Virus record (IMG/VR): IMGVR_UViG_3300021964_000425
Coordinates: 1 to 26,956 of that record
Strand: one strand, 5' to 3'
Origin: a virus
Length of the DNA: 26,956 nucleotides
Below are positions 941 to 19,190 of this stretch, in pieces. Numbering within the stretch: the first letter of the stretch is position 1; every line of letters begins with the position of its first letter. The translations under genes and the position numbers were made by a program. The notes beneath the pieces were generated by a model. The model ran no database searches. It was not told the origin of the DNA and saw only the letters and a program-made list of their open reading frames with translations.

Positions 941-1294
941 TTATGTTGTTACCGAAGGATTCACGTAAATACTTCCTTCTAAAAGTCGCTCTACTAATGA
1001 GTTGCCACTATCGTCTATAAAAGATAGCTCAACATCGTATACGTACCTTTTCTTTGGTTTTAATGCATTTGTTTGTGTATTAGTTAGTGTTAACAAACAA
1101 ACTCCTCCAGTTGCATCTGTAATAGCAGTTCCAAAAGATATTGTGTTTGAACTATCAGCGTTGTAACTTAGTTTCATCGTTGCTGCTAGTGTCATGTCTG
1201 TCAAATTTTTCACAGAGCCATCAGCGCTATCTACATAAAGCTCAATTGCTACATCTGCGCCTTGGTCAATTTCAAGATCTTCTTGTTGTGCCAT
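941..1294 (-). CDS. 117-aa beta-sandwich structural protein (LtfC/p132/Gp6-like)
   Basis: This small protein opens with LEIDQGADVAIELYV and closes with LVERLLEGSIYVNPSVTT. Between these are NLTDMTLAATMKLSY and KKRYVYDVELSF. The order 'D-x-QGA ... LT ... A-x-M ... Y-x-Y-D-x-E ... R-L-L-E-G ... V-x-P' is what I remember for a common small beta-sandwich domain in phage tail-fibre or baseplate-appendage regions, where it may help attach or assemble fibres. The family name is from memory and untested. No signal peptide or membrane segment is visible. A perfect late promoter (1331-1338) lies 36 bases upstream, and TAGG stands about ten bases before the ATG. It is the first gene of its unit, and the fibre gene follows ten bases later. 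Confidence 0.75.
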   Translation of the reverse strand: MAQQEDLEIDQGADVAIELYVDSADGSVKNLTDMTLAATMKLSYNADSSNTISFGTAITDATGGVCLLTLTNTQTNALKPKKRYVYDVELSFIDDSGNSLVERLLEGSIYVNPSVTT

Positions 1295-1330: not shown

Positions 1331-1338
1331 TATTTATA
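1331..1338 (-). promoter_or_regulatory. T4-type late promoter (TATAAATA)
   Basis: The minus strand reads TATAAATA exactly, the consensus recognised by the T4 late sigma factor gp55 with gp33 and the gp45 clamp. It lies in the 93-base gap before the 117-aa gene. Its first T is also the last T of the terminator's T-run. Confidence 0.85.
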
Positions 1339-1361
1339 AAAAAAGGCAACTAGAAGTTGCC
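1338..1361 (-). terminator. Rho-independent terminator after the oxygenase-like gene
   Basis: A seven-base-pair stem (GGCAACT, 3-base loop, AGTTGCC; 1345-1361) is followed on the minus strand by seven Ts (1338-1344). It begins 26 bases after the stop codon of the 219-aa gene. The plus-strand side lacks an uninterrupted T-run, and no plus-strand gene ends here, so it probably works for minus-strand transcription. Confidence 0.9.
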
Positions 1362-1387
1362 TCTCTTTTAACTATTTTTTAATTTAT

Positions 1388-2047
1388 TTATTCTATGGAG
1401 ATCTCTTCAATGACCTGTTTTTGAAATTCTTTTCCTATTTCAGTATCATAAGGACTATAGATGTAAGATATCGTCATCCTCCACACTTCTGTATAAGCAC
1501 AATGATAAACTAATCTATCTTTTGGTTCTTTATATGATCCGAAAAATCCATATTTACATGACCATCCTTTTGGATCTCTCATTTCTACTGTTTTACCTGT
1601 TTTCCAATCATGCATCTTAAAATATCCATAACCGCCAGGATTATATGTAAAAATTAAATTATATGATGAAGCATTTGCATTATTATGCCATGATAGAAAT
1701 GCACCAGGACTGTAAACATGAAATAGAGCATTCCATCTACTCCCGAAAAAAGACATAAGCTGTGTATTTACACTTTCATACCTGTTCGGTATTTCATCAT
1801 TATAGTTATTATATTTTATTTGTTCTGGTTTTATGTTATAGCCAGAAGCACATTCTGGATATCCCTCATGAGCTGTTCCTTCATTAATAACTTTCCATTT
1901 AAACTCTTCACTTACATATTTAGAAGCATCAACCCCTACTCCTCCGGGTTTTACATATTTCTCAACCTTCTCATGATTTTCTACAAACCACTGTGCTTCT
2001 TCTAATATTTCAAGTAGATCTTTATTTCGAATATCAATTAACTTCAT
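1388..2047 (-). CDS. 2OG-Fe(II) oxygenase-like protein
   Basis: This 219-aa protein has the late-domain pattern of a double-stranded beta-helix oxygenase. FHVYSPGAFLSWHNNAN (about 109-125) would carry the first metal-binding His (H121). YHCA supplies the distal His (H182), and WRMTISY supplies an Arg (R190) for the 2-oxoglutarate carboxylate. I remember similar proteins with 'GWHTNAN ... WHC' in T4-like cyanophages annotated as 2OG-Fe(II) oxygenases. The usual HxD motif reads H121-N-N123, so one iron ligand is altered or comes from elsewhere. The substrate is unknown. The gene overlaps the glycosyltransferase gene by ATGA and ends just before a strong terminator, so it closes a four-gene unit that starts with the 856-aa repeat fibre. 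A role in modifying virion proteins or surface sugars is inference. Confidence 0.72.
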   Translation of the reverse strand: MKLIDIRNKDLLEILEEAQWFVENHEKVEKYVKPGGVGVDASKYVSEEFKWKVINEGTAHEGYPECASGYNIKPEQIKYNNYNDEIPNRYESVNTQLMSFFGSRWNALFHVYSPGAFLSWHNNANASSYNLIFTYNPGGYGYFKMHDWKTGKTVEMRDPKGWSCKYGFFGSYKEPKDRLVYHCAYTEVWRMTISYIYSPYDTEIGKEFQKQVIEEISIE

Positions 2048-2790
2048 AATATTTTATCTTTTGGAGCCATATAAGAATAATGTTGAACAACTTCTGGTTT
2101 CTGTATTATAGTTCGTGTTCTATCATAACCTGTGTACCAATTCCATCGTGCATCATCTTCAAATATACCGATTTTTAAGTCTTTATATTTATCCCACTTT
2201 TTAGTTAACCACCATAAGGTAAACTGATCCCATACTTTTAGAGATCGAGGGAAATTTATTTCATCCCAGTTGCCTTTTTCATCCATCGGCCACCACTGAT
2301 TATTCCATTGTTTGTGAAATAATTCAAACCAGTCTTTTATAAATTCTTTTACGATTGGTTTTGAATAGTCGTATAACCATGTACCTCCACAATATTCCAT
2401 TCTATTTCTGTTTTCAGGAGGTCCAAAATACAACTCACTAAATACATATTTACGATCATCTCCCAAATATGTACACATCATATCATTGTCACCGAGCTGA
2501 TCAAAGACTGTTGCGATATCTTCGTGCACTACTTCACAGTCAGCATCAATATAGAACGTCTTATCAAATGGAGTTTGTGCCATACCCCAAATCTTGGCGC
2601 GATAATGATCGTCACAATGTATGATGTGATCAGCAACGTTCTCAGCTCTTACGTCTAAGAAACGTTCTTCGGTGACTAAACAAATTTTTGCATCTTCGTA
2701 ATAGTCTTTAATTGATTCGGCAAGATTAATTGCCATAGAATAAAATGCGGATTTGCGAGAAGCAACTATTAGGTAACCACTGTTTTCCAT
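2044..2790 (-). CDS. Glycosyltransferase, GT-A fold, DxD type
   Basis: This 248-aa protein looks like a small GT-A nucleotide-sugar transferase related to GT8-like enzymes. The N-terminus (SGYLIVASRKSAFYSMAINL) fits the first strand and helix of the nucleotide-binding fold. FDKTFYIDADCEVV places a DxD motif at D82-A-D84, which binds the metal and sugar diphosphate. CGGTWLYD (about 134-141) fits the acceptor side, and VQHYSY near 237 could give the late metal-binding His. The donor and acceptor cannot be read from the sequence. The ATG has AGGAC upstream, inside the end of the 146-aa gene, and the stop overlaps the oxygenase start. It lies between structural genes and so is probably expressed late. 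Targets could be fibres, host glycans or DNA; this is not resolved. Confidence 0.82.
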   Translation of the reverse strand: MENSGYLIVASRKSAFYSMAINLAESIKDYYEDAKICLVTEERFLDVRAENVADHIIHCDDHYRAKIWGMAQTPFDKTFYIDADCEVVHEDIATVFDQLGDNDMMCTYLGDDRKYVFSELYFGPPENRNRMEYCGGTWLYDYSKPIVKEFIKDWFELFHKQWNNQWWPMDEKGNWDEINFPRSLKVWDQFTLWWLTKKWDKYKDLKIGIFEDDARWNWYTGYDRTRTIIQKPEVVQHYSYMAPKDKIL

Positions 2791-2791
2791 G

Positions 2792-3232
2792 TTACAGTCC
2801 TAAGGCTTCTTTGACGATGAGCTGCGCATAGATCTGCAGCTCAACCAAATTCTTTGATTTCCGTAATTTCGATTTAAGTTCACGATTACTAGAGTTCTTA
2901 ATTTCATCAATTTCAAATGCAGACAGCTTTGCTTCAAATAACTGTGCTAATTCCCTTTGTTTCTTTTGTTGCTGCTCTCTAGTGTGTTTTTGTCTAGCCT
3001 CTTCAGCTTTCTTATCATTCCTTTGAGCAGTGTTTTTATCTAGTGTTTCAACACCTAACTGATCTATAATTTCTTGAAAGTCTGGGTTATCAGAACCATC
3101 TGGATTTAGCTTATATACAGTTAATTGTTGTTTAGTTGATTTATTACCATCTTCGGTAACGAGTATTCCAGTTATTCTATCTTTTTGATAATTTTCCCAG
3201 AAAGCATGTCTTTGCCAAGTTCGCTTTGCCAT
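2792..3232 (-). CDS. Conserved-looking 146-aa coiled-coil protein, unknown function
   Basis: I do not recognise a family. The N-terminus (KRTWQRHAFWENYQKDRITGILVTEDGNKST) could form a small folded domain. A long charged helix of Lys, Glu, Gln and Arg runs from about residue 68 to 102 and is very probably a coiled coil; a second helical part (about 103-146) follows. There is no membrane segment or signal peptide. GAGG seven bases before the ATG is a strong ribosome binding site. It follows the 856-aa fibre gene by 38 bases, with no late promoter or terminator between them, so they should be cotranscribed. A fibre-assembly chaperone or small tail component is possible, but only from position. 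Confidence 0.7.
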   Translation of the reverse strand: MAKRTWQRHAFWENYQKDRITGILVTEDGNKSTKQQLTVYKLNPDGSDNPDFQEIIDQLGVETLDKNTAQRNDKKAEEARQKHTREQQQKKQRELAQLFEAKLSAFEIDEIKNSSNRELKSKLRKSKNLVELQIYAQLIVKEALGL

Positions 3233-3270
3233 AATTTACCTCAATTGTTATAATGTTATATATTCAAATA

Positions 3271-5841
3271 TTAAGCTACTCTACAATATAGAGTATAAGT
3301 TTCAACTGTTGCTGCACTCGATTGTATTGTCTCACCAAGGAAGTTTCCAGTAAATACTTGTCCAAACGTTCCTGTAAATGTTCCAACATAATCTTCAGTA
3401 GCATTTGCAGTAGAATTTCGTGTATAGTCTGTCGTGAAGTTTCCTTCAAAGTCTCCAGTGTAAGTGATAGGACCTAAGAAGTTACCTGTAAAGTCTCCAG
3501 TAAAGTCTCCAATGTAATCACCAACATAGTTACCACCATAGTTAGTCGTAAAGTTTTCATCTACGTCTGTGGTATAATTACTTGTAAAGTTTTCATCTGA
3601 AGGACCAGTTGAATTACTTGTAAAGTTTTCATCAACTGGTGTTTCATAATCTGATGTAAAGTTTTCATCTTGATCAGCTGTTGAGTTAGCAGTACTATTT
3701 GCAGTAAAGTTTTCATCTGCATCTGCTGTGCTATTTCTTGTAGAGTCAGCAGTAAAGTTACTAGTTGAGTTTGCAGCTGGATCATCAGGGTTTGTATAGT
3801 TACTTGTAAAATTTTCGTCTTGATCTGCGGTGCTATTACGTGTACTATCTCTTGTAGAATCTCTTGTAAAATCACCAGCATCAACGTTTACATAGTTACC
3901 AGCATATGCTGGACCTGGACCATAATAGTTTGCAGCATTGACGTTTACATAGTCACCAGCATAAGCAGGTGATGGTCCATAATATGTCGGTCCTGGACCA
4001 TAATATGTAGGACCTGGTCCATAGTAAGTAGGACCTGGACCCTGATAGTTAATTTGGTTAACGTTTGTATATGCAATCTGATTGACATTGGTATAAGCAA
4101 TCTGGTTAACGTTTACAGAGTTTCGAGTATAGTTACCAGTAAAGTTTCCAAGATAGTACACTTCGTTCACATTACTATATCTATTTCGTGTATATGTACC
4201 TTCGAAGTTACCTGTATATGTTGGACTTGGTCCATAGTAAGTAGGTCCAGGTCCATAATAAGTTGGGCCTGGTCCATAGTAGTTAATTTGGTTAACATTG
4301 GTATAAGCAATCTGGTTAACGTTTGTATATGCTATTTGGTTTACGTTAGTATAAGCAATCTGGTCGACGTTAACATAGTTACCAACATAGTTAATTGGAC
4401 CCTGATAGTTGATACCGTCTAGGTTAATGTAGTCTCCTACATAATCAATTGGTCCTAAATAGTTACCTGTGAAGTTACCCGTAAAGTTACCAGTGAAGTC
4501 TCCAGTGTAAGTTCCAGTAAAGTCTCCAGTGTATGTAATTGCACCTAAGAAGTCTCCTGTAAAGTCACCAGTATAGTTACCAGTAAAGTCTCCAGTATAA
4601 GTACCTACGAAGTCTCCGACGAAGTCACCTACGAAATCACCAGTATAAGTTCCAATAAAGTCTCCTGTAAATGTACCGACATATGTACCAACGAAGTCTC
4701 CTACGAAGTCTCCAACATATGTACCTACGAAATCTCCAACGAAGTCACCTGTGTATGTTCCAACAAAGTCACCTACGAAGTCTCCTGTATAATCTTCTTC
4801 TGCATTTGCAGTAGAATTTCGAGTAGAGTTTCTTGTTGAATCTGCAGCTGGATCATCAGGATTTGTGTAATCTGATGAGTATGCTCCTACGAAATCTCCA
4901 ACAAAGTTACCAGTAAAGTCACCAACATAATCTCCAGTAAATGTTGTTTCATAATCTGTTTCGTAAACTGTTCCTTCATATTCTGTGGTATAATCAGCAT
5001 CTGCAGTTTCTTTTCTTGTATCAGTTGCAGTTCCTCTTGCGACCCAAGTACCTGTGATTCCAGCACTTGCTGGTGTTCCTGCACCTGAATTACGAAGAAG
5101 GTACCTTCCTACTTTTAACTCAGTGGCAGAATCTGTAGCCATTATTCTTGTGAGAGCTCTTTGACCAAACGTGAACTGAGTTTGTCTTTGAGTCATCTCT
5201 ATCAAACCTTGCCAATCACCACTTCCTCCTGCAGATCTTTTTATAGTAGCAGGAAGCACTGCTGTTGGTGGAGAACCAGCATAGTCTGTGTAAATATTAC
5301 TATTTTGAGTTCTCTTATAAATGTTGTATGTTACAGTTGTACCATCTGTTTGAGTATCTGTAAAAATACCTGATAAAAGAACAGAATAATCTCCACTCGG
5401 TGCAGAGGAACCAAGTCTAAATGTACCTGGATGTTCGTATGTCATGATACGATTTAACAATACATCTGTTAGATCATTTACCTCAGATGATGTTTGTTCT
5501 CTTAAATCGTTTGTTGCACCTACGTCTTGTTTTAAAGGAGATCTGATATCAGAATCAGTCTCAGCAGCAGTTCCTTTTTTCTGATACAGATATTGGGTTG
5601 TTTGACCGATGCTGAGGGATGAGCCTGGGTGAGTACCTACAGACTGATTATAGAAGGTGTCTATCATTCCACCTACTTTATAGTGTCCTGCAGAATCAGT
5701 AAATTGAAGTGCTAATATGCCTGGATCGGCAGAATCTGAAGCAGCAAGTTGTAGTGCAGCCTGATAAGCTATATATTCATAGTTATCTGAATCAAATTCA
5801 CGTAAGTCTTTAGTATTGACTAATTTAAGAGGTGCTGCCAT
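3271..5841 (-). CDS. 856-aa tetrapeptide-repeat fibre protein
   Basis: Residues 1-280 form a non-repetitive head; almost all of 283-838 is repeat; a short tail ends GETIQSSAATVETYTLYCRVA. The basic unit is four residues, [DN]-[FYS]-[TVI]-[GRAS], as in TGDFVGDFVGTYTGDF, so an aromatic residue recurs every fourth position. Other sections use an eight-residue unit (VNQIAYTN) and a seven-residue unit (YYGPGPT). Head and tail closely match the 561-aa protein encoded just upstream, for example FRLGSSAP and DTQTDGTTV, so the two are tandem paralogues. No enzymatic motif is visible. A long fibrous or solenoid virion protein in the baseplate/fibre region is the best reading. A perfect late promoter lies only seven bases before the ATG, and no Shine-Dalgarno sequence is visible. 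Confidence 0.85.
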   Translation of the reverse strand: MAAPLKLVNTKDLREFDSDNYEYIAYQAALQLAASDSADPGILALQFTDSAGHYKVGGMIDTFYNQSVGTHPGSSLSIGQTTQYLYQKKGTAAETDSDIRSPLKQDVGATNDLREQTSSEVNDLTDVLLNRIMTYEHPGTFRLGSSAPSGDYSVLLSGIFTDTQTDGTTVTYNIYKRTQNSNIYTDYAGSPPTAVLPATIKRSAGGSGDWQGLIEMTQRQTQFTFGQRALTRIMATDSATELKVGRYLLRNSGAGTPASAGITGTWVARGTATDTRKETADADYTTEYEGTVYETDYETTFTGDYVGDFTGNFVGDFVGAYSSDYTNPDDPAADSTRNSTRNSTANAEEDYTGDFVGDFVGTYTGDFVGDFVGTYVGDFVGDFVGTYVGTFTGDFIGTYTGDFVGDFVGDFVGTYTGDFTGNYTGDFTGDFLGAITYTGDFTGTYTGDFTGNFTGNFTGNYLGPIDYVGDYINLDGINYQGPINYVGNYVNVDQIAYTNVNQIAYTNVNQIAYTNVNQINYYGPGPTYYGPGPTYYGPSPTYTGNFEGTYTRNRYSNVNEVYYLGNFTGNYTRNSVNVNQIAYTNVNQIAYTNVNQINYQGPGPTYYGPGPTYYGPGPTYYGPSPAYAGDYVNVNAANYYGPGPAYAGNYVNVDAGDFTRDSTRDSTRNSTADQDENFTSNYTNPDDPAANSTSNFTADSTRNSTADADENFTANSTANSTADQDENFTSDYETPVDENFTSNSTGPSDENFTSNYTTDVDENFTTNYGGNYVGDYIGDFTGDFTGNFLGPITYTGDFEGNFTTDYTRNSTANATEDYVGTFTGTFGQVFTGNFLGETIQSSAATVETYTLYCRVA
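3328..4995. repeat. In-frame tandem repeats coding for four-residue units (856-aa protein)
   Basis: The DNA shows many degenerate 12-base units, on the plus strand built around words such as aagtctcc, aagttacc and aaatctcc separated by short variable words. Each codes for a four-residue unit. Third positions vary between copies, so the array is not freshly amplified throughout. Array changes by whole units would keep the reading frame. Confidence 0.9.
3934..4374. repeat. Two copies of a VNQIAYTN/YYGPGPT block
   Basis: Residues about 490-553 (4183-4374) and 576-636 (3934-4116) share the same order: several VNQIAYTN units, then several YYGPGPT units, then an Ala/Thr-Tyr-x-Gly linker. This is a higher-order duplication inside the repeat array, with near-identical DNA words such as ataagcaatctggttaac in both copies. 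Confidence 0.85.
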
Positions 5842-5848
5842 AATGTAT

Positions 5849-5856
5849 TATTTATA
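5849..5856 (-). promoter_or_regulatory. T4-type late promoter (TATAAATA)
   Basis: A perfect TATAAATA on the minus strand in the 23-base gap before the 856-aa fibre gene. Only seven bases separate it from the ATG (TATAAATAATACATTATG), so a transcript starting here would have almost no leader. Confidence 0.85.
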
Positions 5857-5864
5857 TGTTTTTA

Positions 5865-7550
5865 TTATGCTACACGAACATAAAGCGTATAAGTTTCAAC
5901 AGTTTCTGCTGAGGATTGAATTGTTTCTCCGAAATAGTTACCTGTAAAGTCACCTGTGTATGTTCCTACGAAATCACCAGTAAATGTGCCAATATAGTTT
6001 CCAGTAAAGTTCGTAGTAGATGCTGCGGTTGAGTTTCTTGTAGAATCTGCGGTTGAATTACGTGTAAAGTTTTCATCCTGTACTCTTGTATATGTACCAG
6101 TAAAATCACCCGTAAAACCTGAACTATAATTGCCTGCATAACCAGCCGCATCTGGATTAACTGAACCACGTGTAGAATCTCTCGTAGAGTTTCTTGTATA
6201 GTTTCCTTCATAAGGAGCAATTAAGAAGTTACCAACATAGTTACCAAGATAGTATGTCTCATTGATAGGACTGTACACGCTTCGGGTATAATCAGTTACT
6301 CGTGCTGGAGCACCAAGATAATCTGTGCCTGCATAATCAGTTTCATAGTTAGATTGAATTGGTCCAACCCAGTTACCCTGATAGTCTATATTTTGTAAAG
6401 GACCACCTACCCAGTTTCCAACAAAGTCTGTAGGTCCAGCAAAATTACCAGTATAATTAGTTGAAAATGCTTGTCCATCTGGATTTATGTAAGTTCCAAT
6501 AAAATCTCCTGTGAAATCTCCTGTAAAATTTCCAGTATATGTAATCGCACCAAGATAAGTTCCTTCAAATGCTTCTATTTGTACTCTTGTATATGCACCT
6601 TCGAAGTTACCTGTGTATGGACCAACGAAGTCTCCTGTAAAGTCTCCTATATAATTACCAGTAAAGTCACCGACAAAATTACCCTCATAATCTGCTGTAT
6701 AGTCTGTTTCATATACAGATGTAAAGTTTTCATCAGCATCTGCAGTACTATTACGTGTATAATCAACATCTGATGTTGTCTTTTTCGTATCAGTTGCAGT
6801 ACCTCTTGTTGACCATGTACCTGCTAATGTAGGTGCACCTTGAGTTGAAGATCTTAATTGATAATTACCAATGTTACCTGATGAATCCATCATATAATAC
6901 TTCATATGATTTCCGAGGGTGTACACACACTGAGCACTATCCATCGCTTGTAATCCTTGGAAAGTACCTGTGTAACCGCCAGATCTCTTGATCGACATTG
7001 GATTTACTTTTGTAGGTTCTGATATTCCGGATGTTCTCTTATAAATGCTATAGTTTACAGTTGTGCCATCTGTTTGTGTGTCTGAAAACACATTCGATAA
7101 GTGTACGGTATAACCAGCTGGAGCAGACGAACCTAATCTAAATGAACCTAAATATTCATTTACCATCGCGTGACCAGCTAATCTTTTTGATAGTTCATAA
7201 AATTCAGCAGATGACATTTCACCTATATCTGAATTTGATTCTACATTTATTGGTGTTCTAAAGTTTGCATTTGCTGAATCTAAGTCACTACCATTTCTTT
7301 GATATAAAGTAGTAACTGTTGAACCAGTAGATAATGCTGAACCTGGATGAGTTCCTACTGCTTCATTAAAGAATGTGTCTGTGAATGAACCAATGCTGTT
7401 TCCTGATAGAGTCGATAATTGATATGGAGCTGTAGAATCGTCCATCATCAAGCGAAGACTTGCCTGATAAGCTAGCCAATGCTCTTCATCACGAGTGAAT
7501 CTTTGTATGTCCCCGTCTGCTTGATGTTTAAGTGGGTAACGATTAGCCAT
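5865..7550 (-). CDS. 561-aa tetrapeptide-repeat fibre protein
   Basis: This is the shorter paralogue of the 856-aa protein encoded next. Residues 1-260 form a non-repetitive head (WLAYQASLRL, FRLGSSAP, SDTQTDGTTVNYSIYKRT, RGTATDTKK). Residues about 262-542 are four-residue repeats such as VGDFTGNYIGDFTGDF and RNSTRDSTRG, and the tail is GETIQSSAETVETYTLYVRVA. Here the repeats are broken by more irregular inserts (VGGPLQNIDYQGNWVGPIQ). AGGA and GAG occur upstream of the ATG. The gene follows the 269-aa fibre-like gene by 11 bases and is the last gene of the unit driven from 16287-16294. It is probably a virion fibre or baseplate-associated filament; exact role unknown. Confidence 0.85.
   Translation of the reverse strand: MANRYPLKHQADGDIQRFTRDEEHWLAYQASLRLMMDDSTAPYQLSTLSGNSIGSFTDTFFNEAVGTHPGSALSTGSTVTTLYQRNGSDLDSANANFRTPINVESNSDIGEMSSAEFYELSKRLAGHAMVNEYLGSFRLGSSAPAGYTVHLSNVFSDTQTDGTTVNYSIYKRTSGISEPTKVNPMSIKRSGGYTGTFQGLQAMDSAQCVYTLGNHMKYYMMDSSGNIGNYQLRSSTQGAPTLAGTWSTRGTATDTKKTTSDVDYTRNSTADADENFTSVYETDYTADYEGNFVGDFTGNYIGDFTGDFVGPYTGNFEGAYTRVQIEAFEGTYLGAITYTGNFTGDFTGDFIGTYINPDGQAFSTNYTGNFAGPTDFVGNWVGGPLQNIDYQGNWVGPIQSNYETDYAGTDYLGAPARVTDYTRSVYSPINETYYLGNYVGNFLIAPYEGNYTRNSTRDSTRGSVNPDAAGYAGNYSSGFTGDFTGTYTRVQDENFTRNSTADSTRNSTAASTTNFTGNYIGTFTGDFVGTYTGDFTGNYFGETIQSSAETVETYTLYVRVA
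5925..6767. repeat. In-frame tandem repeats coding for four-residue units (561-aa protein)
   Basis: Degenerate 12-base units encode [DN]-[FYS]-[TVI]-[GRAS] quartets over residues about 262-542. They are less regular than the array in the neighbouring paralogue, with several unique inserts between short runs. Confidence 0.85.
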
Positions 7551-8371: not shown

Positions 8372-8603
8372 TTTTCTCGTCCAATAATCTTAAGATTAAA
8401 TCGTTAATTTTATTTATTCCGTCCTCAACTTTCTCAAGTCGATTAATTAATTGTTTCTCTTCTTCAGCCTTTTTCAATCTCAACGCTTTTCGTTGTCGAG
8501 CTTGCATAACTTCATTTTCACTTATGTTAATAATAACACCAGTTTTTCTATCTCGTGCTAACCCTTTATGTCCTTCTACTCTTATTAAGTCCATAAACTT
8601 CAT
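8361..8603 (-). CDS. 80-aa coiled-coil protein, unknown function
   Basis: The N-terminal half (RVEGHKGLARDRKTGVIINI) fits a small domain that I remember in short proteins of marine T4-like phages, with 'VEGH-x-x-L-x-R-D-x-x-T-x-x-I-I-N' as its signature; no function is known to me. Residues about 38-77 form a charged helix suited to a coiled coil (KKAEEEKQLINRLEKVEDGI). The ATG overlaps the stop of the giant gene (TAATG), and the next gene begins before this one ends. It could be a small linker or assembly factor for the fibres on both sides. Confidence 0.75.
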   Translation of the reverse strand: MKFMDLIRVEGHKGLARDRKTGVIINISENEVMQARQRKALRLKKAEEEKQLINRLEKVEDGINKINDLILRLLDEKNGI

Positions 8604-11600
8604 TAATCAATCATTGCTATTGCTCTAAAGTCTCTTAATTTAGGGACTCTTGAAGAGTTTGTTGATCTCATTACAATTTTAAATTGCATTTTTGTAAATG
8701 GATCTAACACACCGTTCTGACCACCAGCTAGATATTCATAATCTCTAAAGATTGTAGGATTATCATCTGGAGCTGGAGTTGATTGTGGTGCTAATAGTAC
8801 CCAGTTAACTTGATCTAAGTTAGTATCTTCTCCACCAACTCTGTAATATAAGTCTACAGAAGCTACTGAAGGTCTATTGACTGCTAAGAATACTTTAATA
8901 CCTACTGAAGCGTTTGCAAGAGTAGCAGGTATTGAGATGTGTCTTGCAACTTCTTTACCGTTTGTTGCTACAGTTTCTGCAGAATCTTCAATTGTAAATT
9001 TATCAACAGTTGTATCTGTAATGTGGTTTCCAATCAGAGTCATTGAAGCTCTTTGTAAGTCAACAATTGGAGATACAAAGTTATTTGTTGTGCTAATAGG
9101 TACACTTATTTCTGATGAATAGTTTCCACCCAATCCTTCAGAACCTACTACTAAGTTTTCTCTCGTTCTATTGGCAATCATCTTAGGTGCAGAGAATGAA
9201 GTGTTTCTATTGAATCTTAATGCTGACCAAGCTGTATCTTTTGTCATTCTTGTTTCTGAACCAGCTACTGATCTACCTGAAGTAAACTTACCTCTTAATG
9301 CTAAACCTGTTAAGTCAGGTACCATTGTTTGTAGATCAACTTTTGCTAAGTTAAATTGAATGTTTCTATCTACAACTTTAACATTCGAACCACCTGAATA
9401 TGTTGATTTAGTTGGCGCAAGTGTTCCAGCTGGTACTGAGAACACAATACCGGAAGCATCAAAATGTTTTACAGTATGTGTTGAATCGAGTACGCTGCCT
9501 AATACACCACCATAACTTGTTCCACCTGTTAATCCAGTTATTTCGAAAGTATCTCCTGAATCTAAACCGTGATCTGGGAAATGAAGGATAATATCTGAAT
9601 CGCCAGCTGTAGTTTTAATTGGGTTAGGATCTAATCTGTAAGCAGGAACATTTGCATTTCTCAATCTTACGTCACCAGATGTCTTATTAAATGATGCCCT
9701 TACAAGTTTCATCATTAAATCTTTCTTCTGATCTGGCTCCCATGTTCTACCATTTTGTGATTTAAATAGTGAACCAAGTGAAGGTTGAGTTGTAATTCTC
9801 TTCGATGTAGAACCTAACTGGAATTGTCCAACTTCTGAAACATAAACCGTGTATTTGTTACTATCAGCAAGTAATACGACTGCATATTCCTCTTGTGGTG
9901 AGAGATATACAGGTTCATCTAACTCAAATGATGTAGGAGCTGCCAAAACTCCAGCAACTGTTTGTGTTGATACAGTTGTTACTTGAGAAGATGTAAGCGT
10001 TTTAGTTGCAATATACTTTGTAGAATGTGGATGTCCATTTTCCATTGGTCTGATTTGTAAAGTTACAGGTAGTGTACTATCTTTAGTTTTAAAGTATACT
10101 TTAACTTTTGTTAAGAATACACCTGTTAAATCGTTGACCAAGAAAGATTGAGCAAGAGGATCTCGATATCCACATCTTGTTCTCATCATCTTATTACCAA
10201 TGAATGTGTCACCTACGAATCTAGAACCAAAGTTACTAAATGTTAAGGCTGCATCAGGTAAAGTATTGTCTGCTGTAAATGTTGCTGCACCAGTTCTGAG
10301 TGGGCTAATAAGTTTACCAAGCGATGGCAAGAAACTCTTAACTTTCTTACTATTAGATGTAGTAGTTTCTTCACCTAAAACATTAAGTACGCGAGTTGTC
10401 TTAACTGTTTCTTGTACAGTTTCGATTGTACCTTTTGCTTCATACGTTGCTGTTGCAACAGATAATGCTTGGTTGTCTAATCCACCAGAAATATCTAATA
10501 GTTTAAATTGTCTCGTACCAGTTTTAAATTGTTTATGAGGAATAAAGAATGAACCCTCAATTGCACCATTTGTATCAGATACAAGTGATGATGAACCTTC
10601 TGGGTGAGATGTAGCTGCATCGTATTGGTTACCATAGTCAGTAGTATCAGCTGAGAAGTTCACAAATGTTTCTTCTCTAACCCAACTGTCAACTGCCTTA
10701 TTATCAAAGTAAGGATAGTATTTAGTGTTAGGTCTTAATCCACCAACTTTAAAGTAAATCTTACGTGATCGTATCCAAGGTATAAGTGCAACGTCAACAA
10801 CTTTATTTCCAACAACTTCTCTTATCGTTTCTGATGAAACAATTCGATTAACTTTCGTTGGGTTAGCTCTTTCGTCGGCATCTGCATTATATCTTGGTGA
10901 GTCAGGTTGATCTCCCCAAGCATCAGCTCTTCTGGCTTGTGCTGTTCTGTAATCTCTATCAGGTGTTGATGATGTTAATGATCTATTTGCATCGTCACCA
11001 ACTTCTAAATCTTCGATATTTTTACCGCCCCAGTTCCATTCCCAGTTATTCCATAGGTAAGCTTGAGTGGTATCTAATTTAGTTCCACCTTGGACAACCT
11101 TTTGTCCAGTTTGTTTTACTTCTCTCCATTCATCTGATGCTGGAGATAGTGTAATATTACCTCTTGATGAAGTAACATTGAATGGGTTTACATTCTCTGT
11201 GCCTGAACAAATGTCAATTGCTTGATATTCAGCTGAGTCATATGATAACATAACTAAGTCACCGACTTTAGTTACATTTGATGATGAGTCAGCATTGTAT
11301 ATAAGTCTTATGTTATTTTCGTGGAAAGATGGTCTTAATATCTTTTCACCTGGATCAATAGATGCACTATAACCAGCATCAGCAGTTTGTGCAAATGCTT
11401 GATCACTAAAGTTATCAACTAAGAATCCAGCTTTTGTTCTAGCATTACCAGTACTATCTAATACTTGTAAGTTCTTTGTATCAACTTCAAGTAATGATAG
11501 AGCAGTAAGTTCTTCTAATCTTTGGACTTGTTTATCCAACTTAGAGATATCGTTCATAGTGTATCTCTTCGCATCGATTGGACTTAAAACAACATCAGAG

Positions 11601-13927
11601 TCGTTAGTCGTATTTGCGTTAAGAGCTATGCGATATAATTCTAAAGTTCCATCTGGTGTGTTAGGGAATTTAGGATTAAAATCTGGTGTACCTTGTACAT
11701 TAATCAATACTCCATTTTCATCGATAACTAATTTATCTGAACGAGGTTGATATGTATCAACGTCTGCTAATAGAGTATCACCATTTCTTGGTAATTTATT
11801 AATGTCTGTAAATCCTGCACTTGCGACAATACCTTGTTTGGTAGGTCTAAAGTCTAGGACATCTCTAAGTTGTATGGTTCCTTCTACAGGTGAAGTGTGA
11901 GAAGGAATGTTTCCATAAGATACTTGACCATCGTATGAGTTGACTGAATAGAAGTCACCTGAACCATGTGCAAAGTATCTGAATTGACAGTAAGTGGCTG
12001 ATGGCTTGCTTAGTCCTGATTTAAGAATAAGTCTTGAATTTTGATAATAGTTATCTCTTTGTCCGTTATCAACGTTAAAGTTATCACTAATATCAACAGC
12101 AGTACCACCTGCACTGTCTTGAATTGCAAGTATATCGTATAAGTCAGCTTGACCTAAGTCGATATATGTAATACCATCTGAATCTACGTAATCAGCAGCT
12201 GTCGTAGAAGTCTTGGTAGTAGTTGTAAGTGTTTTAGCTCTTTCTGTTACGCTCTTTGATACGTAATAGACGAGAGTAAATCCTGCAGAAGCTGATAATC
12301 CACCAATTGTTACTGATGTAGAGCTTGATGAAACGATTGTAGGAGCAACTAATTGTCCATTTGAAGTTGCTATCCATAATCCTGTATCTGTTAAAGCTTC
12401 TGGAGCTGAAACTGTAATTGTTGCTTGACCTGAACCATTTGCAGCACCAGTTGTTCTTCTTTGTGAAGTTACTGTAATATCTGTAAGTTCTTTAGGTCGT
12501 ATTCTTGGCATATCAAAGAATACATTATTGTCTCTTGGTTGTTTAAGTATAGCTTTAGCTACTCCATTTAAAGTTTCAGTCGTAATTGTTAATCTGTCTC
12601 CAGCACTATCACCAACTTGTAAATGTCTTGCATCTATTTCAAAGTTTTTACCAGCGTTCATCTTTGTATCAAAAATGTATGCTCTATAATCAGCACCATC
12701 TTCTTCAATAGCTCTAATTCTGGTTGTACCTACAACTGATTTAGAATTATCTAAAATACTAATTGAACCTAAAGTATCGATAGTTGGAATAGTTAATCCA
12801 CTTGCACTTGAACTATCATTTACAATCAGATAGTTTCCATATACAACTGGAATGTTTACGTTAGCTTCTGAAACGTATGTTTGTGGTTTAGCAATTGCTA
12901 AAGTATTTGCAGTTTGTGTTTCTGCTCTATAACCATTTACATATGCAACACCAGGTGAAACGTCTAAGTCTAAGTAATTAGCATCAGAATCGTTTAATGA
13001 GAAAGTTGCTTTAAATGGTTTAACGATATAGTTACCAGATTCCTCGTAAGTTCTCTTAGCAAGTAAGTCGTTAATTTTATTGTAATTGTCAGTTGCCGAA
13101 ATTTGAGAGACGATTTCAGATTGTTTAACTTTACAATAGAATATAAAATCTTCATCTGCGGCCACGTCTGCTTCATCGATAAGAGTTAATCTTATTCGAT
13201 ATCTGTCAGCACCTGGAGCAGAAGTATTCGGTGTTGCACCTTGATTATCGTATAATGCTGAATTATCACCTGAAGTTACAATATCTTGTGTAACTTTAAA
13301 TCCAACATTACCACTATAATCATTTGAATAGTAACTTAATATGAGTGATTGTGCACTTGAATATACGAAGTGACCTTGTGTAAAGAATGCACCATCACCG
13401 AATGAAATTCTTGTACCTGTACCTGTTGCACTTGTTGAAGCTGATTTGATATCACCAACAGATGCATTTTCTAATGTTTCGTTATCAGCAGCTTTAATAT
13501 ATGTTCCACTTGAGTTACCACCAATGTATTGTACATAAATGGTATCAACTGCACCAGTTTGTGCTGCTGTATAATACTCTAAGATTCTAAATGTAACACC
13601 AGAAGTTGCTCCTGTATATTCAGCATCAATTAGAGTTGATGTGTCTGCTGGAAGTGCTAAACCACCAGCACCAGTATCTGTATTAAGTTTAATGTAGTCA
13701 TAAGATTTATTGATAGTAACAGTTGAACCAGATACACAAGCACCTTCTTTAAAGATATTCTTACCGAATCTCTCCATTTCCTTGTTGATGATTGTTTGTA
13801 ACTGAGTTAACTCTCTTGCTTGTAGAGCTCTACCAGCATTAAACAGTATTCGATAGTAAGCATCACTATCGTTATAATCATCTTTATATGTTGATGCAAA
13901 TATTCCTGAGTTGTATGCTGTTGCCAT
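8603..13927 (-). CDS. Giant DUF4815-type virion structural protein (1774 aa)
   Basis: The N-terminus carries the signature I know from DUF4815 proteins of marine T4-like phages: STYKDDYNDSDAYYRILF, then RALQARELTQLQTIINKEM and FGKNIFKEGACV (about 12-64). A helical stretch near residue 790 (DISKLDKQVQRLEELTALSL) is also typical. Around residues 1240-1400 a beta-sandwich-like part (DPLAQSFLVNDLTGVFLTKV, then IRPMENGHP, PVYLSPQEEYAVVLLADS) resembles a sugar-binding or fibre-interface domain. The last 120 residues (VDLYYRV, KMQFKIVMRSTNSSRVPKL) are again beta-rich. No catalytic motif is apparent. Its place right after gp8 suggests a peripheral baseplate or fibre-network protein, perhaps in the position of T4 gp9-gp12, but equivalence is unproven. 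It starts eight bases after the gp8 stop. Confidence 0.85.
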   Translation of the reverse strand: MATAYNSGIFASTYKDDYNDSDAYYRILFNAGRALQARELTQLQTIINKEMERFGKNIFKEGACVSGSTVTINKSYDYIKLNTDTGAGGLALPADTSTLIDAEYTGATSGVTFRILEYYTAAQTGAVDTIYVQYIGGNSSGTYIKAADNETLENASVGDIKSASTSATGTGTRISFGDGAFFTQGHFVYSSAQSLILSYYSNDYSGNVGFKVTQDIVTSGDNSALYDNQGATPNTSAPGADRYRIRLTLIDEADVAADEDFIFYCKVKQSEIVSQISATDNYNKINDLLAKRTYEESGNYIVKPFKATFSLNDSDANYLDLDVSPGVAYVNGYRAETQTANTLAIAKPQTYVSEANVNIPVVYGNYLIVNDSSSASGLTIPTIDTLGSISILDNSKSVVGTTRIRAIEEDGADYRAYIFDTKMNAGKNFEIDARHLQVGDSAGDRLTITTETLNGVAKAILKQPRDNNVFFDMPRIRPKELTDITVTSQRRTTGAANGSGQATITVSAPEALTDTGLWIATSNGQLVAPTIVSSSSTSVTIGGLSASAGFTLVYYVSKSVTERAKTLTTTTKTSTTAADYVDSDGITYIDLGQADLYDILAIQDSAGGTAVDISDNFNVDNGQRDNYYQNSRLILKSGLSKPSATYCQFRYFAHGSGDFYSVNSYDGQVSYGNIPSHTSPVEGTIQLRDVLDFRPTKQGIVASAGFTDINKLPRNGDTLLADVDTYQPRSDKLVIDENGVLINVQGTPDFNPKFPNTPDGTLELYRIALNANTTNDSDVVLSPIDAKRYTMNDISKLDKQVQRLEELTALSLLEVDTKNLQVLDSTGNARTKAGFLVDNFSDQAFAQTADAGYSASIDPGEKILRPSFHENNIRLIYNADSSSNVTKVGDLVMLSYDSAEYQAIDICSGTENVNPFNVTSSRGNITLSPASDEWREVKQTGQKVVQGGTKLDTTQAYLWNNWEWNWGGKNIEDLEVGDDANRSLTSSTPDRDYRTAQARRADAWGDQPDSPRYNADADERANPTKVNRIVSSETIREVVGNKVVDVALIPWIRSRKIYFKVGGLRPNTKYYPYFDNKAVDSWVREETFVNFSADTTDYGNQYDAATSHPEGSSSLVSDTNGAIEGSFFIPHKQFKTGTRQFKLLDISGGLDNQALSVATATYEAKGTIETVQETVKTTRVLNVLGEETTTSNSKKVKSFLPSLGKLISPLRTGAATFTADNTLPDAALTFSNFGSRFVGDTFIGNKMMRTRCGYRDPLAQSFLVNDLTGVFLTKVKVYFKTKDSTLPVTLQIRPMENGHPHSTKYIATKTLTSSQVTTVSTQTVAGVLAAPTSFELDEPVYLSPQEEYAVVLLADSNKYTVYVSEVGQFQLGSTSKRITTQPSLGSLFKSQNGRTWEPDQKKDLMMKLVRASFNKTSGDVRLRNANVPAYRLDPNPIKTTAGDSDIILHFPDHGLDSGDTFEITGLTGGTSYGGVLGSVLDSTHTVKHFDASGIVFSVPAGTLAPTKSTYSGGSNVKVVDRNIQFNLAKVDLQTMVPDLTGLALRGKFTSGRSVAGSETRMTKDTAWSALRFNRNTSFSAPKMIANRTRENLVVGSEGLGGNYSSEISVPISTTNNFVSPIVDLQRASMTLIGNHITDTTVDKFTIEDSAETVATNGKEVARHISIPATLANASVGIKVFLAVNRPSVASVDLYYRVGGEDTNLDQVNWVLLAPQSTPAPDDNPTIFRDYEYLAGGQNGVLDPFTKMQFKIVMRSTNSSRVPKLRDFRAIAMID

Positions 13928-17303: not shown

Positions 17304-19190
17304 CTAAGTTTGTGCTGTTGTTTCTACGACTCTTACAGCACTTCGTGATTCGTCATAACCAACAATATCATTTCTTGTTGGTGCAATAACCGATTGATTA
17401 GCAGGTACAGCTGCAATCTTCAAGTAAGTTCCAGTAATTGCAGATGGAGCAAATCCTTCAAGTCTAACTGTTCCAGCAGTGGTGTTATAACTACCAATGT
17501 TATCAACCACAACAGATTTATCAGATGCTTTTACAATTTCTAATACATTTGAATTTAATCTATTTCTTAATTCACAGAGTACTCCATTATATGTAAATTT
17601 AGTACTCGTTACAATATAATTTACATCATCTGGAGCTGCAATAGTTGTTGGATATGTAAGTGTATATGTTCTAGAAGTTGATAATAAAAGACTACCAACA
17701 ACAGTTGAATCAGCAGCCAATCCTGGTGTCGATACATTCAATCTTTGTTGCATTCGAATATCTGCTCTTGATGATAATACTGCAGTACTTACTGCGTCAA
17801 CGTCAGTTAACAAATTTGATCTTCTAAATGCTCTTTTAAATTTACCAGCATTTGTTGTAGTATTAAACAATAAAGTGTCTTCAAAGTAATCTATAATTGC
17901 TTGCCTTACATTTGTTCTTGTTGTGTTTTCTGATACAGTTGTAAGTTTAGGATTGAATTGAAAGAATACATCTGCTTCAACAAATGTAATAGCAGGATCT
18001 GCAAATTCTACATCAAATGATATAACACCTAAGTCTCGAACAAGTGTTCTAATACCATCTTCTGTCGCTGTCTTTTGTGCATCTGTTACGTCTGTATCAT
18101 ATAAAATAGAAACATAAGTTGAACCAAATTTAGGTTCTGTATTTTCTTCTCCACCCCATGCATTGATATCATCAATCAGAGTAGAATAGTTTCTCAAAAT
18201 AAGTGATGAGTAGTCAGTAGCTGTCACCATTCTGTTTTGTGATGCATACAAGAATGGTGCATTTTTTCTAACCGATTCTATTGATTCTTTTACTTTACCA
18301 CTTGTTGAGTTAGCAACAGTAGTAGCAGAAATAGTGTAATTTTCTGAACCAACACTTAATTGAGTAGATGGTGTAAATGTAGAAGCACCATTTGCATCTG
18401 GACCAGAAACTGATAAGTAATCAACAACAATTTGTTTACCTGCAGTCGGTGTAACACCTAAAGTATTACCATCACCAAATGTTAATTCAAAGTAACCATT
18501 TGGAGCTTCTTTTAAGATGTATACAGTCGAAGCTGAAGTTAATTCTTGAGCATCGGCTATATTTGTATAAGTTGTGTAAAGTGAAGATGATGGTGAATCA
18601 TATACTTTTACGATTGCAGTTGTAATATCCATATTTGCATCTGGTATAACATAAGTTAAATTTTCAGAATATGGACCTACAATAAAAGTCTTAGTTCTTT
18701 GTGCTCCTTCATATACCAATATTGAACTGCTTCCAGCTGCAGTTTGGAAATTATATGTTCCACTTGCATTTGTTGCTGATAACTCTTCTCTTGTTTGAAA
18801 GGTATAAGTTGTATCATCTATCGTAGCAGTAAGTTTGGTGTTAATTGGCATTGTTACGATATCTGGTCTTGTATCAGTTACAGGTATAGTGATACTTAAA
18901 TTAACTGTTCCACGAGATGCAATGCGTGAATCAGGTATGTAACCGATTGCTGTTGCTAAAGATACAATTGAACTTCTTAGTTGTGCTGTACCTAAGTATG
19001 ATTCATTTAAAGCAAAATTTGCTATAAGTGCATTATAGTGTGTATTATAAGCTAAAACATCGAGGATGTTTGATAAGCCCGATGCTTCAAAATCATAATC
19101 AGCAAACTCATCTTGTGCTGCTAAAAAAGTCTTTAGATTATTTTTAATTGAATTAAAATCTAAAGCTGTAGATTTAATTGTTGTTGCCAT
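17304..19190 (-). CDS. gp6: Baseplate wedge protein gp6
   Basis: This 628-aa protein is close in length to T4 gp6 (about 660) and starts with the family signature STALDFNSIKNNLKTFLAAQ, followed by SGLSNILDVLAYNTHYNALI and NESYLGTAQLRSSIVSLATA (about 8-87). Its middle and C-terminal parts contain baseplate_J-type sequence, such as GYFELTFGDGNTLGVTPTAG (about 232-251), ENRxVT-like QNRMVTATDYSSLI (318-331) and SFDVEFADPAITFVEADVFF (about 379-398). gp6 makes the ring that joins neighbouring wedges around the hub and is conserved in all contractile baseplates. The start is one base after the gp25 stop, as expected for a tightly coupled pair. Confidence 0.95.
   Translation of the reverse strand: MATTIKSTALDFNSIKNNLKTFLAAQDEFADYDFEASGLSNILDVLAYNTHYNALIANFALNESYLGTAQLRSSIVSLATAIGYIPDSRIASRGTVNLSITIPVTDTRPDIVTMPINTKLTATIDDTTYTFQTREELSATNASGTYNFQTAAGSSSILVYEGAQRTKTFIVGPYSENLTYVIPDANMDITTAIVKVYDSPSSSLYTTYTNIADAQELTSASTVYILKEAPNGYFELTFGDGNTLGVTPTAGKQIVVDYLSVSGPDANGASTFTPSTQLSVGSENYTISATTVANSTSGKVKESIESVRKNAPFLYASQNRMVTATDYSSLILRNYSTLIDDINAWGGEENTEPKFGSTYVSILYDTDVTDAQKTATEDGIRTLVRDLGVISFDVEFADPAITFVEADVFFQFNPKLTTVSENTTRTNVRQAIIDYFEDTLLFNTTTNAGKFKRAFRRSNLLTDVDAVSTAVLSSRADIRMQQRLNVSTPGLAADSTVVGSLLLSTSRTYTLTYPTTIAAPDDVNYIVTSTKFTYNGVLCELRNRLNSNVLEIVKASDKSVVVDNIGSYNTTAGTVRLEGFAPSAITGTYLKIAAVPANQSVIAPTRNDIVGYDESRSAVRVVETTAQT

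Follow-up and report, generated by a model that had tools for sequence, protein, structure and literature searches.

GlyE of Streptococcus pneumoniae is a GT8-type glycosyltransferase that glycosylates serine-rich repeat adhesins, which are long repetitive surface proteins, and we know of no oxygenase in that system. In the Skp1 pathway of Dictyostelium and Toxoplasma, a cytoplasmic 2OG hydroxylase acts first, and glycosyltransferases, including a glycogenin-like one, act after it (PMC3515798, PMC11570480). Mimivirus L230 has been shown to possess both lysyl hydroxylase and collagen glucosyltransferase activities, and hydroxylysine is present in the particles (PMC9614988). In the host-recognition cluster of pelagimyophages, GT8 and hydroxylase genes have been reported; the sections of that report that we consulted assign the glycosyltransferase to host lipopolysaccharide and do not describe the cassette presented here (PMC7029224).

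Exploring a 26,956-nucleotide stretch of viral DNA (the window), we found a repeat fibre gene followed by genes for a probable coiled-coil (cc) protein, a glycosyltransferase (GT) and a 2OG oxygenase fold. As in Mimivirus L230, a virus-encoded 2OG hydroxylase and glycosyltransferase would act on the virus's own repetitive structural protein. Unlike L230, which is one bifunctional protein of a giant amoebal virus acting on Lys of Gly-X-Y collagen, the cassette belongs to a tailed phage and has two enzyme genes, a GT8-like GT and tetrad repeats nearly without Lys or Pro. The pairing of a 2OG hydroxylase with a glycogenin-like GT recalls the Skp1 pathway; there the substrate is one proline of a cellular regulator, whereas proline is rare in the presumed fibre substrate. 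With GlyE the cassette shares a GT8-type enzyme and a long repetitive protein as substrate, here a presumed one; unlike the cassette GT, GlyE extends existing glycans and carries an extra domain. The cassette occupies the same genome place as the pelagimyophage host-recognition cluster, after VrlC, and the VrlC-like protein of the window can be aligned with VrlC of HTVC008M. The genome stretches of HTVC008M, Mosig and Melnitz that were compared hold no cassette fibre, GT or oxygenase. In the literature searched we found no paper describing the cassette or the decoration by phages of their own fibres, and a search for mycobacteriophage virion glycosylation found nothing. From the gene order, late-promoter layout, folds and active-site conservation that we observed, and from how strictly fibre and enzymes are linked, we consider it probable that this is a dedicated fibre-maturation cassette in which GT and oxygenase modify the fibre repeats.

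Organization and transcription of the cassette

All parts named by an earlier note on this DNA were found on the minus strand, at or near the places it had assigned to them (Table 1). The cc, GT and oxygenase genes nearly abut or overlap and lie within the late promoter unit of the fibre. Family scans and a PDB search with the 146-aa cc protein gave no match; it may be a fibre chaperone or an enzyme adaptor.

Table 1. Parts of the cassette and its flanks, in coordinates of the window.
Feature	Position	Strand	Remarks
TATAAATA T4-type late promoter element	5849..5856	-	before 856-aa fibre gene
856-aa repeat fibre	3271..5841	-	~262-aa conserved N-terminal domain, aromatic tetrad repeats, conserved C-terminal tail
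561-aa paralogous repeat fibre	5865..7550	-	upstream of 856-aa fibre; shares N-terminal domain
146-aa basic, probably coiled-coil (cc) protein	2792..3232	-	between fibre and GT
248-aa GT-A/GT8-like glycosyltransferase (GT)	2044..2790	-	D82xD84, D188Q189, H237, K244
219-aa 2OG/Fe(II)-oxygenase fold	1388..2047	-	H121-x-N123 ... H182 ... R190; 4-nt overlap with GT
Intrinsic terminator	1338..1361	-	3' of oxygenase gene
TATAAATA late promoter of next unit	1331..1338	-	before 117-aa gene
117-aa neighbour, L-shaped-tail-fibre-assembly-like	941..1294	-	phrog_1084/3304; outside cassette

Minus-strand copies of TATAAATA occur in the window at 5849-5856, 19637, 16287 and 1331 (4 observed, ~2 expected in the shuffled strand). 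Motif scans of the window by themselves could reflect chance; the promoter layout, however, is kept in relatives, where TATAAATA stands before 41/69 fibre genes, before 0/98 of the cc genes, 0/98 of the GT genes and 1/98 of the oxygenase genes, and before 93/98 of the genes that come next. T4-type late promoters flank the cassette and are nearly absent from its interior, and the copy at 1331-1338 is that of the gene after the unit. The unit had been described as free of internal promoters and terminators; indeed no TATAAATA lies within it, but nothing closes off the genes upstream: since there is no terminator between the 561-aa paralogue and the 856-aa fibre, upstream genes can read into the unit. 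The strong terminator claimed at its end held up, with a hairpin of minimum free energy -16.3 kcal/mol (z -5.1; equalled by 0/200 shuffles) that is followed by a T run. Under a strict test a terminator was detected in just 3/98 relatives, and it is therefore no conserved part of the cassette.

The glycosyltransferase and its linkage to the fibre

The enzymes of the window gave nothing usable in Pfam, NCBIfam and PHROG scans, and a sequence search of solved structures found no relative, so that both folds were assigned by structure modelling only; the models and their fold matches agree with the GT and 2OG oxygenase predicted before. The AlphaFold model of the GT (pLDDT 94.6) has the GT-A fold of GT8 type and matches glycogenin/GT8 at Z 17.6 (rmsd 3.5, 194 aligned residues); Skp1 galactosyltransferase (6mw5, Z 15.3), GlyE (5gvv, Z 15.1) and LgtC (Z 14.6) are also among its matches. 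Protein-modifying enzymes, namely glycogenin, GlyE and Skp1 galactosyltransferase, are thus among its best fold matches. D82, D84, D188, Q189 and H237 are present in 108/108 sequences and K244 in 106/108; the DxD, the DQ and the downstream His are equivalent to metal/donor residues of LgtC/glycogenin. Against Pfam Glyco_transf_8 the GT of the window had no match above cut-off, and the divergent orthologue of locus L242 reached E 3.2e-4, under the gathering score.

Linkage was counted over distinct related loci (~120). The oxygenase gene lies at most three genes after GT in 119/120, cc directly precedes GT in 130/133, and a fibre is upstream in 114/115. A search seeded from the oxygenase found the cassette in all loci; seeded from GT, it found cc and oxygenase in all loci as far as the contigs reached; and a search with the repeats only led to cc-GT-oxygenase in every locus with a long enough contig. 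The linkage persists among the most divergent members of the family, whose GTs have 29-40% identity. Co-occurrence across related phages, proposed earlier as a check, is strict for fibre and enzymes from all three starting points, and the finding named earlier as a refutation, a wide occurrence of the enzymes in related phages devoid of repeat fibres, was not made. The four genes make up a conserved cassette, and the arrangement is a general one, carried by many uncultured marine phages. L242 and L252 have a divided set, with a second repeat ORF directly before GT and fibre-cc-oxygenase elsewhere, and in L111-115 a second fibre gene stands between GT and oxygenase. The 117-aa gene is more loosely linked (78/88 within the next three genes), lies on the opposite side in L253-259 and is present as well in cultured phages that have no cassette. 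Because fibre and enzymes stay linked in L242, L252 and L111-115 while the 117-aa gene shifts, the association is more than synteny. When repeat composition was compared with enzyme divergence in Mantel tests, the signal was no greater than that of a neighbouring control gene, which does not favour the enzymes acting on the repeats.

These data also bear on the possibility that GT alters host surface glycans (the lipopolysaccharide O-chain) and so blocks other phages, with its location among host-recognition genes a matter of convenience and the oxygenase separate. The GT8 enzymes of the pelagimyophage cluster are read in this way in the sections consulted (PMC7029224), and LgtC, found among the fold matches, is a lipopolysaccharide GT8. 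We consider this unlikely, however, as the link of GT with fibre, cc and oxygenase holds in 119-130 of 120-133 loci, GT sits within the late promoter layout of the fibre, and a repeat ORF comes before it in the rearranged loci too.

Composition of the fibre repeats

The 856-aa fibre had been said to carry GPGPT-type repeats and hundreds of Ser, Thr, Asn and Tyr residues; these four sum to 326, and exact GPGPT occurs 5 times. All the fibres share one unit, the tetrad aromatic-x-(Gly/Arg)-(Asn/Asp/Thr); their aromatic residues are spaced by 4 in 58% of steps, and the 856-aa gene has DNA tandem periods of 12/24/36/48/72 nt. Relatives commonly carry two fibre copies, and the N-terminal domain of the fibre is too variable to be used as a scanning profile. 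An S-RIM2 protein considered as a fibre match was rejected, as it has no aromatic tetrads.

Across 42 non-redundant fibres, Pro makes up a median of 1.1% of the repeat region (minimum 0) and Lys 0.5%. Motifs of GPGPT type hardly occur outside this phage and the relative closest to it. A collagen-like fibre with Pro-rich Gly-X-Y triplets is ruled out by the aromatic spacing of 4 and the Pro median, and proline hydroxylation, the first idea, was dropped on repeat composition. Given that Pro and Lys are scarce and GPGPT nearly private, the collagen, Pro and Lys reading is not supported; of the earlier proposal that the two enzymes may modify this fibre, it is the gene linkage that argues strongly in favour, and the collagen-like part falls away. 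Candidate targets in the fibre are Thr, Tyr, Asn or Asp. Only aromatic residues, Gly and Thr are abundant in every fibre, which, as regards the target residue, counts against the modification proposed here.

It is also improbable that the enzymes act not on the repeats but on another part of the virion, such as the fibre N-terminal domain, the cc protein or the neighbouring fibre-assembly protein. The N-terminal domain and cc are found just as strictly as the repeats, whose sequences vary widely; yet the dense Thr/aromatic/Gly pattern is kept in the repeat regions of 42/42 non-redundant fibres, and in L242 and L252 the ORF before GT bears repeats and is not matched by the profile of the N-terminal domain.

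The oxygenase active site

The AlphaFold model of the 219-aa protein (pLDDT 94.9) is a double-stranded beta-helix matching 4iw3 (Foldseek E 3.3e-6), PHD2/P4H (prolyl hydroxylase; Z 11.5, VIA) and AlkB-type structures. In the PDB and viral fold lists a collagen-specific enzyme is not clearly ahead of other 2OG oxygenases, an absence that we do not take as evidence. One of 43 family members matches phrog_81 '2OG-Fe(II) oxygenase' at 8.5e-4, and none matches Pfam or NCBIfam. H121, N123, H182 and R190 are invariant in 118/118 distinct sequences. R190, 8 residues past H182, provides the basic residue for the 2OG carboxylate, and the H121-H182 spacing of 61 is the same as in PHD2. Instead of the H-x-D/E ... 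H iron triad, all 118, paralogues included, have H-x-N ... H, which counts against oxygenase activity on the fibre. So do the paralogues elsewhere in the same genomes, beside tail-tube/uvsY, NifU or ThyX genes, because of which the oxygenase family as a whole is not fibre-specific.

The H-x-N could mean that the oxygenase fold of the 219-aa protein is dead and serves as a binding or folding factor, with glycosylation alone being real. We regard this as very unlikely: invariance of the four residues is unlike a decayed site, and AspH is active with two His ligands only and no carboxylate, single-ligand variants being active too (PMC8252765). Finally, that the enzyme pair modifies phage DNA by hydroxylation and then glucosylation is extremely improbable and was dropped on genomic context: AlkB-type structures are among the oxygenase matches, but the genes lie in a late fibre operon and not among replication genes, GT is glycogenin/GT8-like with no DNA glucosyltransferase fold, and linkage to the fibre is strict. 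A 2OG oxygenase with a glycosyltransferase is a known DNA-modification pairing, which is the other point in favour of that reading.

Proposed maturation of the fibre

Returning to modification of the fibre repeats, a long fibre with a run of (Tyr/Phe)-x-(Gly/Arg)-(Asn/Asp/Thr) tetrads would be made late in infection, and the cc protein, produced next, would probably aid its folding or its presentation to the enzymes. The GT8-like enzyme, acting in the bacterial cytoplasm, would transfer a sugar, probably from a UDP-sugar, onto hydroxyl-bearing repeat residues, the acceptor most likely being Thr or Tyr, or a hydroxyl first added by the 2OG oxygenase (e.g. on Asn/Asp). Late cytoplasmic hydroxylation and glycosylation of the tetrad repeats (Thr/Tyr, Asn/Asp) is our best guess; the fibre as substrate, the residue, the step order and the sugar are those that we infer, and the role in the virion may be protection, stiffness or receptor binding. 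That widespread uncultured aquatic T4-like phages have their own post-translational hydroxylation/glycosylation system, which uses an H-x-N oxygenase family, for a new class of aromatic-tetrapeptide fibre is a proposition that we hold to be as likely as not.

Genome annotation is blind to the cassette because its proteins have no assigned family. If the proposal is true, tailed phages possess a two-enzyme fibre-modification system on a non-collagen scaffold, with a natural H-x-N 2OG oxygenase family. Some abundant aquatic phages would then decorate receptor-contacting fibres, with effects on adsorption, on host range and on the stability of the particles. For GT8 genes in the host-recognition regions of phages, hitherto ascribed to host lipopolysaccharide, there would be a different reading. 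Fibre, adaptor, GT and oxygenase would also make a compact genetic system for studying repeat-protein modification. The rearranged loci, together with ~20 loci that carry an additional GT-like gene immediately after the oxygenase, are compatible with glycan building on the fibre.

Conservation of the four-gene cassette

The genes and the promoter and terminator signals described in the earlier note are all present in this 26,956-base virus fragment, whose main genes lie on the minus strand. Searches seeded with the oxygenase, the glycosyltransferase or the repeats alone all recovered the same gene order: fibre, small basic probable coiled-coil protein, glycosyltransferase, oxygenase. The loci sampled were the best 80 matches per list, and the counts describe these loci rather than a census. 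Among the matches listed, the coiled-coil gene immediately preceded the glycosyltransferase gene in 130/133 distinct loci, and the oxygenase gene immediately followed it in 134/141. Enzyme and fibre genes likewise co-occurred across related phages among the matches listed, with the fibre upstream in 114/115 distinct loci and the oxygenase within three genes after the glycosyltransferase in 119/120. Seven related loci lacked an immediately following oxygenase (L111, L115, L261, L269, L297, L252 and L053); in the first five a further fibre gene separates the two enzymes, and in the rearranged L252, the one locus with no oxygenase within three genes, it lies a few genes on. Second fibre genes inserted at this position were seen in L111-L115, L261, L264-L267 and L269-L271; the one inserted fibre studied, that of L115, has aromatic spacings mainly of 6 and 8, not 4. 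Searching bacterial genome contigs with the glycosyltransferase yielded three, each of which has phage structural genes nearby and carries the full cassette or as much of it as is visible.

Conservation of the cassette exceeds synteny. In L242 and L252 the cassette is split, with a repeat-bearing ORF directly before the glycosyltransferase, the gene of the 117-aa tail-fibre-assembly-like neighbour next, and fibre, coiled-coil and oxygenase genes further on; in L253-L259 the 117-aa gene lies upstream instead, and in cultured pelagiphages and cyanophages it is present and none of the four cassette genes was found. The four cassette genes thus stay together even as the genes around them change.

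Coordinates of the cassette and related features
Feature	Locus	Position	Strand
Fibre, 856 aa	window	3271-5841	minus
Coiled-coil protein, 146 aa	window	2792-3232	minus
Glycosyltransferase, 248 aa	window	2044-2790	minus
Oxygenase, 219 aa	window	1388-2047	minus
TATAAATA to fibre start codon	window	5841-5856	
VrlC-aligned protein	window	8603-13927	
Further glycosyltransferase-like or sulfotransferase-like genes	L284	9460-10227	
	L024	10648-11313	
	L254	9281-10006	
Extra oxygenase copies	L086 (C48C1)	18267-18920	
	L086 (C48C1)	40130-40804	
Epimerase and UDP-glucose dehydrogenase genes	L086 (C48C1)	35326-37226	
Four annotated 2OG oxygenases	L167 (HTVC008M)	26443-28682	

Promoter layout

The T4-type late promoter element TATAAATA was found no more than 60 nt from the gene following the oxygenase in 93/98 distinct relatives and from the fibre start in 41/69 relatives, and was nearly absent before cassette-internal genes (coiled-coil 0, glycosyltransferase 0, oxygenase 1; 98 distinct relatives). 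With these counts, the layout cannot be put down to chance matches. When all labelled genes were counted separately, 45 of the 650 others that are 150 aa or longer had the element. The glycosyltransferase and oxygenase genes overlap by 4 nt, and in relatives the median overlap between the coiled-coil and glycosyltransferase genes is 17 nt. In the window the fibre start codon lies 7 nt past the element, a spacing that would leave the mRNA with little or no leader. Of the relatives' fibre genes, 56 have the element, at a spacing of 5-7 nt in 10 and 21-52 nt in the others.

Predicted enzymes

The glycosyltransferase model (pLDDT 94.6) matched glycogenin (Z 17.6), with matches also to GlyE, LgtC and the Skp1 galactosyltransferase; five residues (Asp82, Asp84, Asp188, Gln189 and His237) do not vary among 108 distinct sequences. 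Divergent loci carry further genes directly after the oxygenase, glycosyltransferase-like in about 20 loci and sulfotransferase-like in one lineage. Their family scores are weak; genes of this kind would be expected where a glycan is assembled.

The oxygenase model (pLDDT 94.9) matched prolyl hydroxylases (Z 11.5) and a bacterial P4H (Foldseek E 3.3e-6), and its motif H121-x-N123...H182...R190 is invariant in 118 sequences. Asn replaces the usual Asp in the wider family, including paralogues adjoining tail-tube/uvsY, NifU and ThyX genes. As the carboxylate ligand is dispensable in AspH (PMC8252765), activity of the H-x-N enzyme is plausible by analogy. In the tree, tail-tube/uvsY paralogues nest among the cassette oxygenases, and those of the NifU/ThyX type branch separately. 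Extra copies in Phage C48C1 adjoin a tail-tube/uvsY pair and a NifU-like gene, and in relatives one copy adjoins a ThyX-like gene.

Fibre repeats and a proposed modification

The fibre begins with an N-terminal domain of ~262 aa that varies yet can be recognised, followed by repeats and a conserved tail. Across 42 non-redundant fibres, aromatic-to-aromatic steps are exactly four residues in 58% and eight in 13%, every fibre shows an aromatic-x-Gly enrichment of 2.3-fold or more, and the repeats contain at least 11% Thr and 13.5% aromatic residues, with medians of 1.1% Pro and 0.5% Lys. Asn and Asp are each nearly absent in some fibres (minimum 1.6% and 0.3%, respectively). The unit is (Y/F)-(T/S/A/V)-(G/R)-(N/D/T), with variants including YTGQ, YTGV, FTGS and FLGV; tandem periods in the window DNA are mostly multiples of 12 nt. 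The collagen comparison drawn earlier rested on GPGPT, a motif hardly found outside the window and its closest relative, and is not upheld.

In the simplest account, the enzymes would act on the fibre encoded in their own transcription unit. Because Thr and aromatics are universal in the fibres and the glycosyltransferase is of glycogenin type, it may O-glycosylate fibre Thr or Tyr, and the oxygenase may generate or adjust sites, Asn/Asp being one example; we infer substrate, residue, sugar and order of steps alike. A test of enzyme-repeat coevolution gave a signal no greater than that with a neighbouring control gene.

The nearest precedent is the Mimivirus protein L230, which adds both hydroxyl and glucose to lysines in collagen-like proteins (PMC9614988), and Skp1 modification is a cytoplasmic one; unlike the phage fibre, neither substrate has aromatic tetrad repeats. 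Given this difference, and as no description of such a phage cassette was found in the literature searched, we class it as a new form of the hydroxylation/glycosylation that viruses encode for repetitive structural proteins, the modification itself being predicted.

Genome setting

The large protein listed in the table can be aligned to VrlC from the Pelagibacter phage HTVC008M, which places the cassette in the region known to pelagimyophage workers as the host-recognition cluster (PMC7029224). In this region HTVC008M has four neighbouring genes with a 2OG oxygenase annotation, none of which matched the cassette-oxygenase profile at 1e-4. The window's baseplate genes have relatives in C48C1, HTVC008M and cyanophages; among 50,697 phage records, only C48C1 has relatives of the glycosyltransferase, oxygenase and coiled-coil protein, in the window's order downstream of a 3347-aa fibre. 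The replication region of C48C1 also has genes for a nucleotide-sugar epimerase and a UDP-glucose dehydrogenase, which might supply sugar donors.
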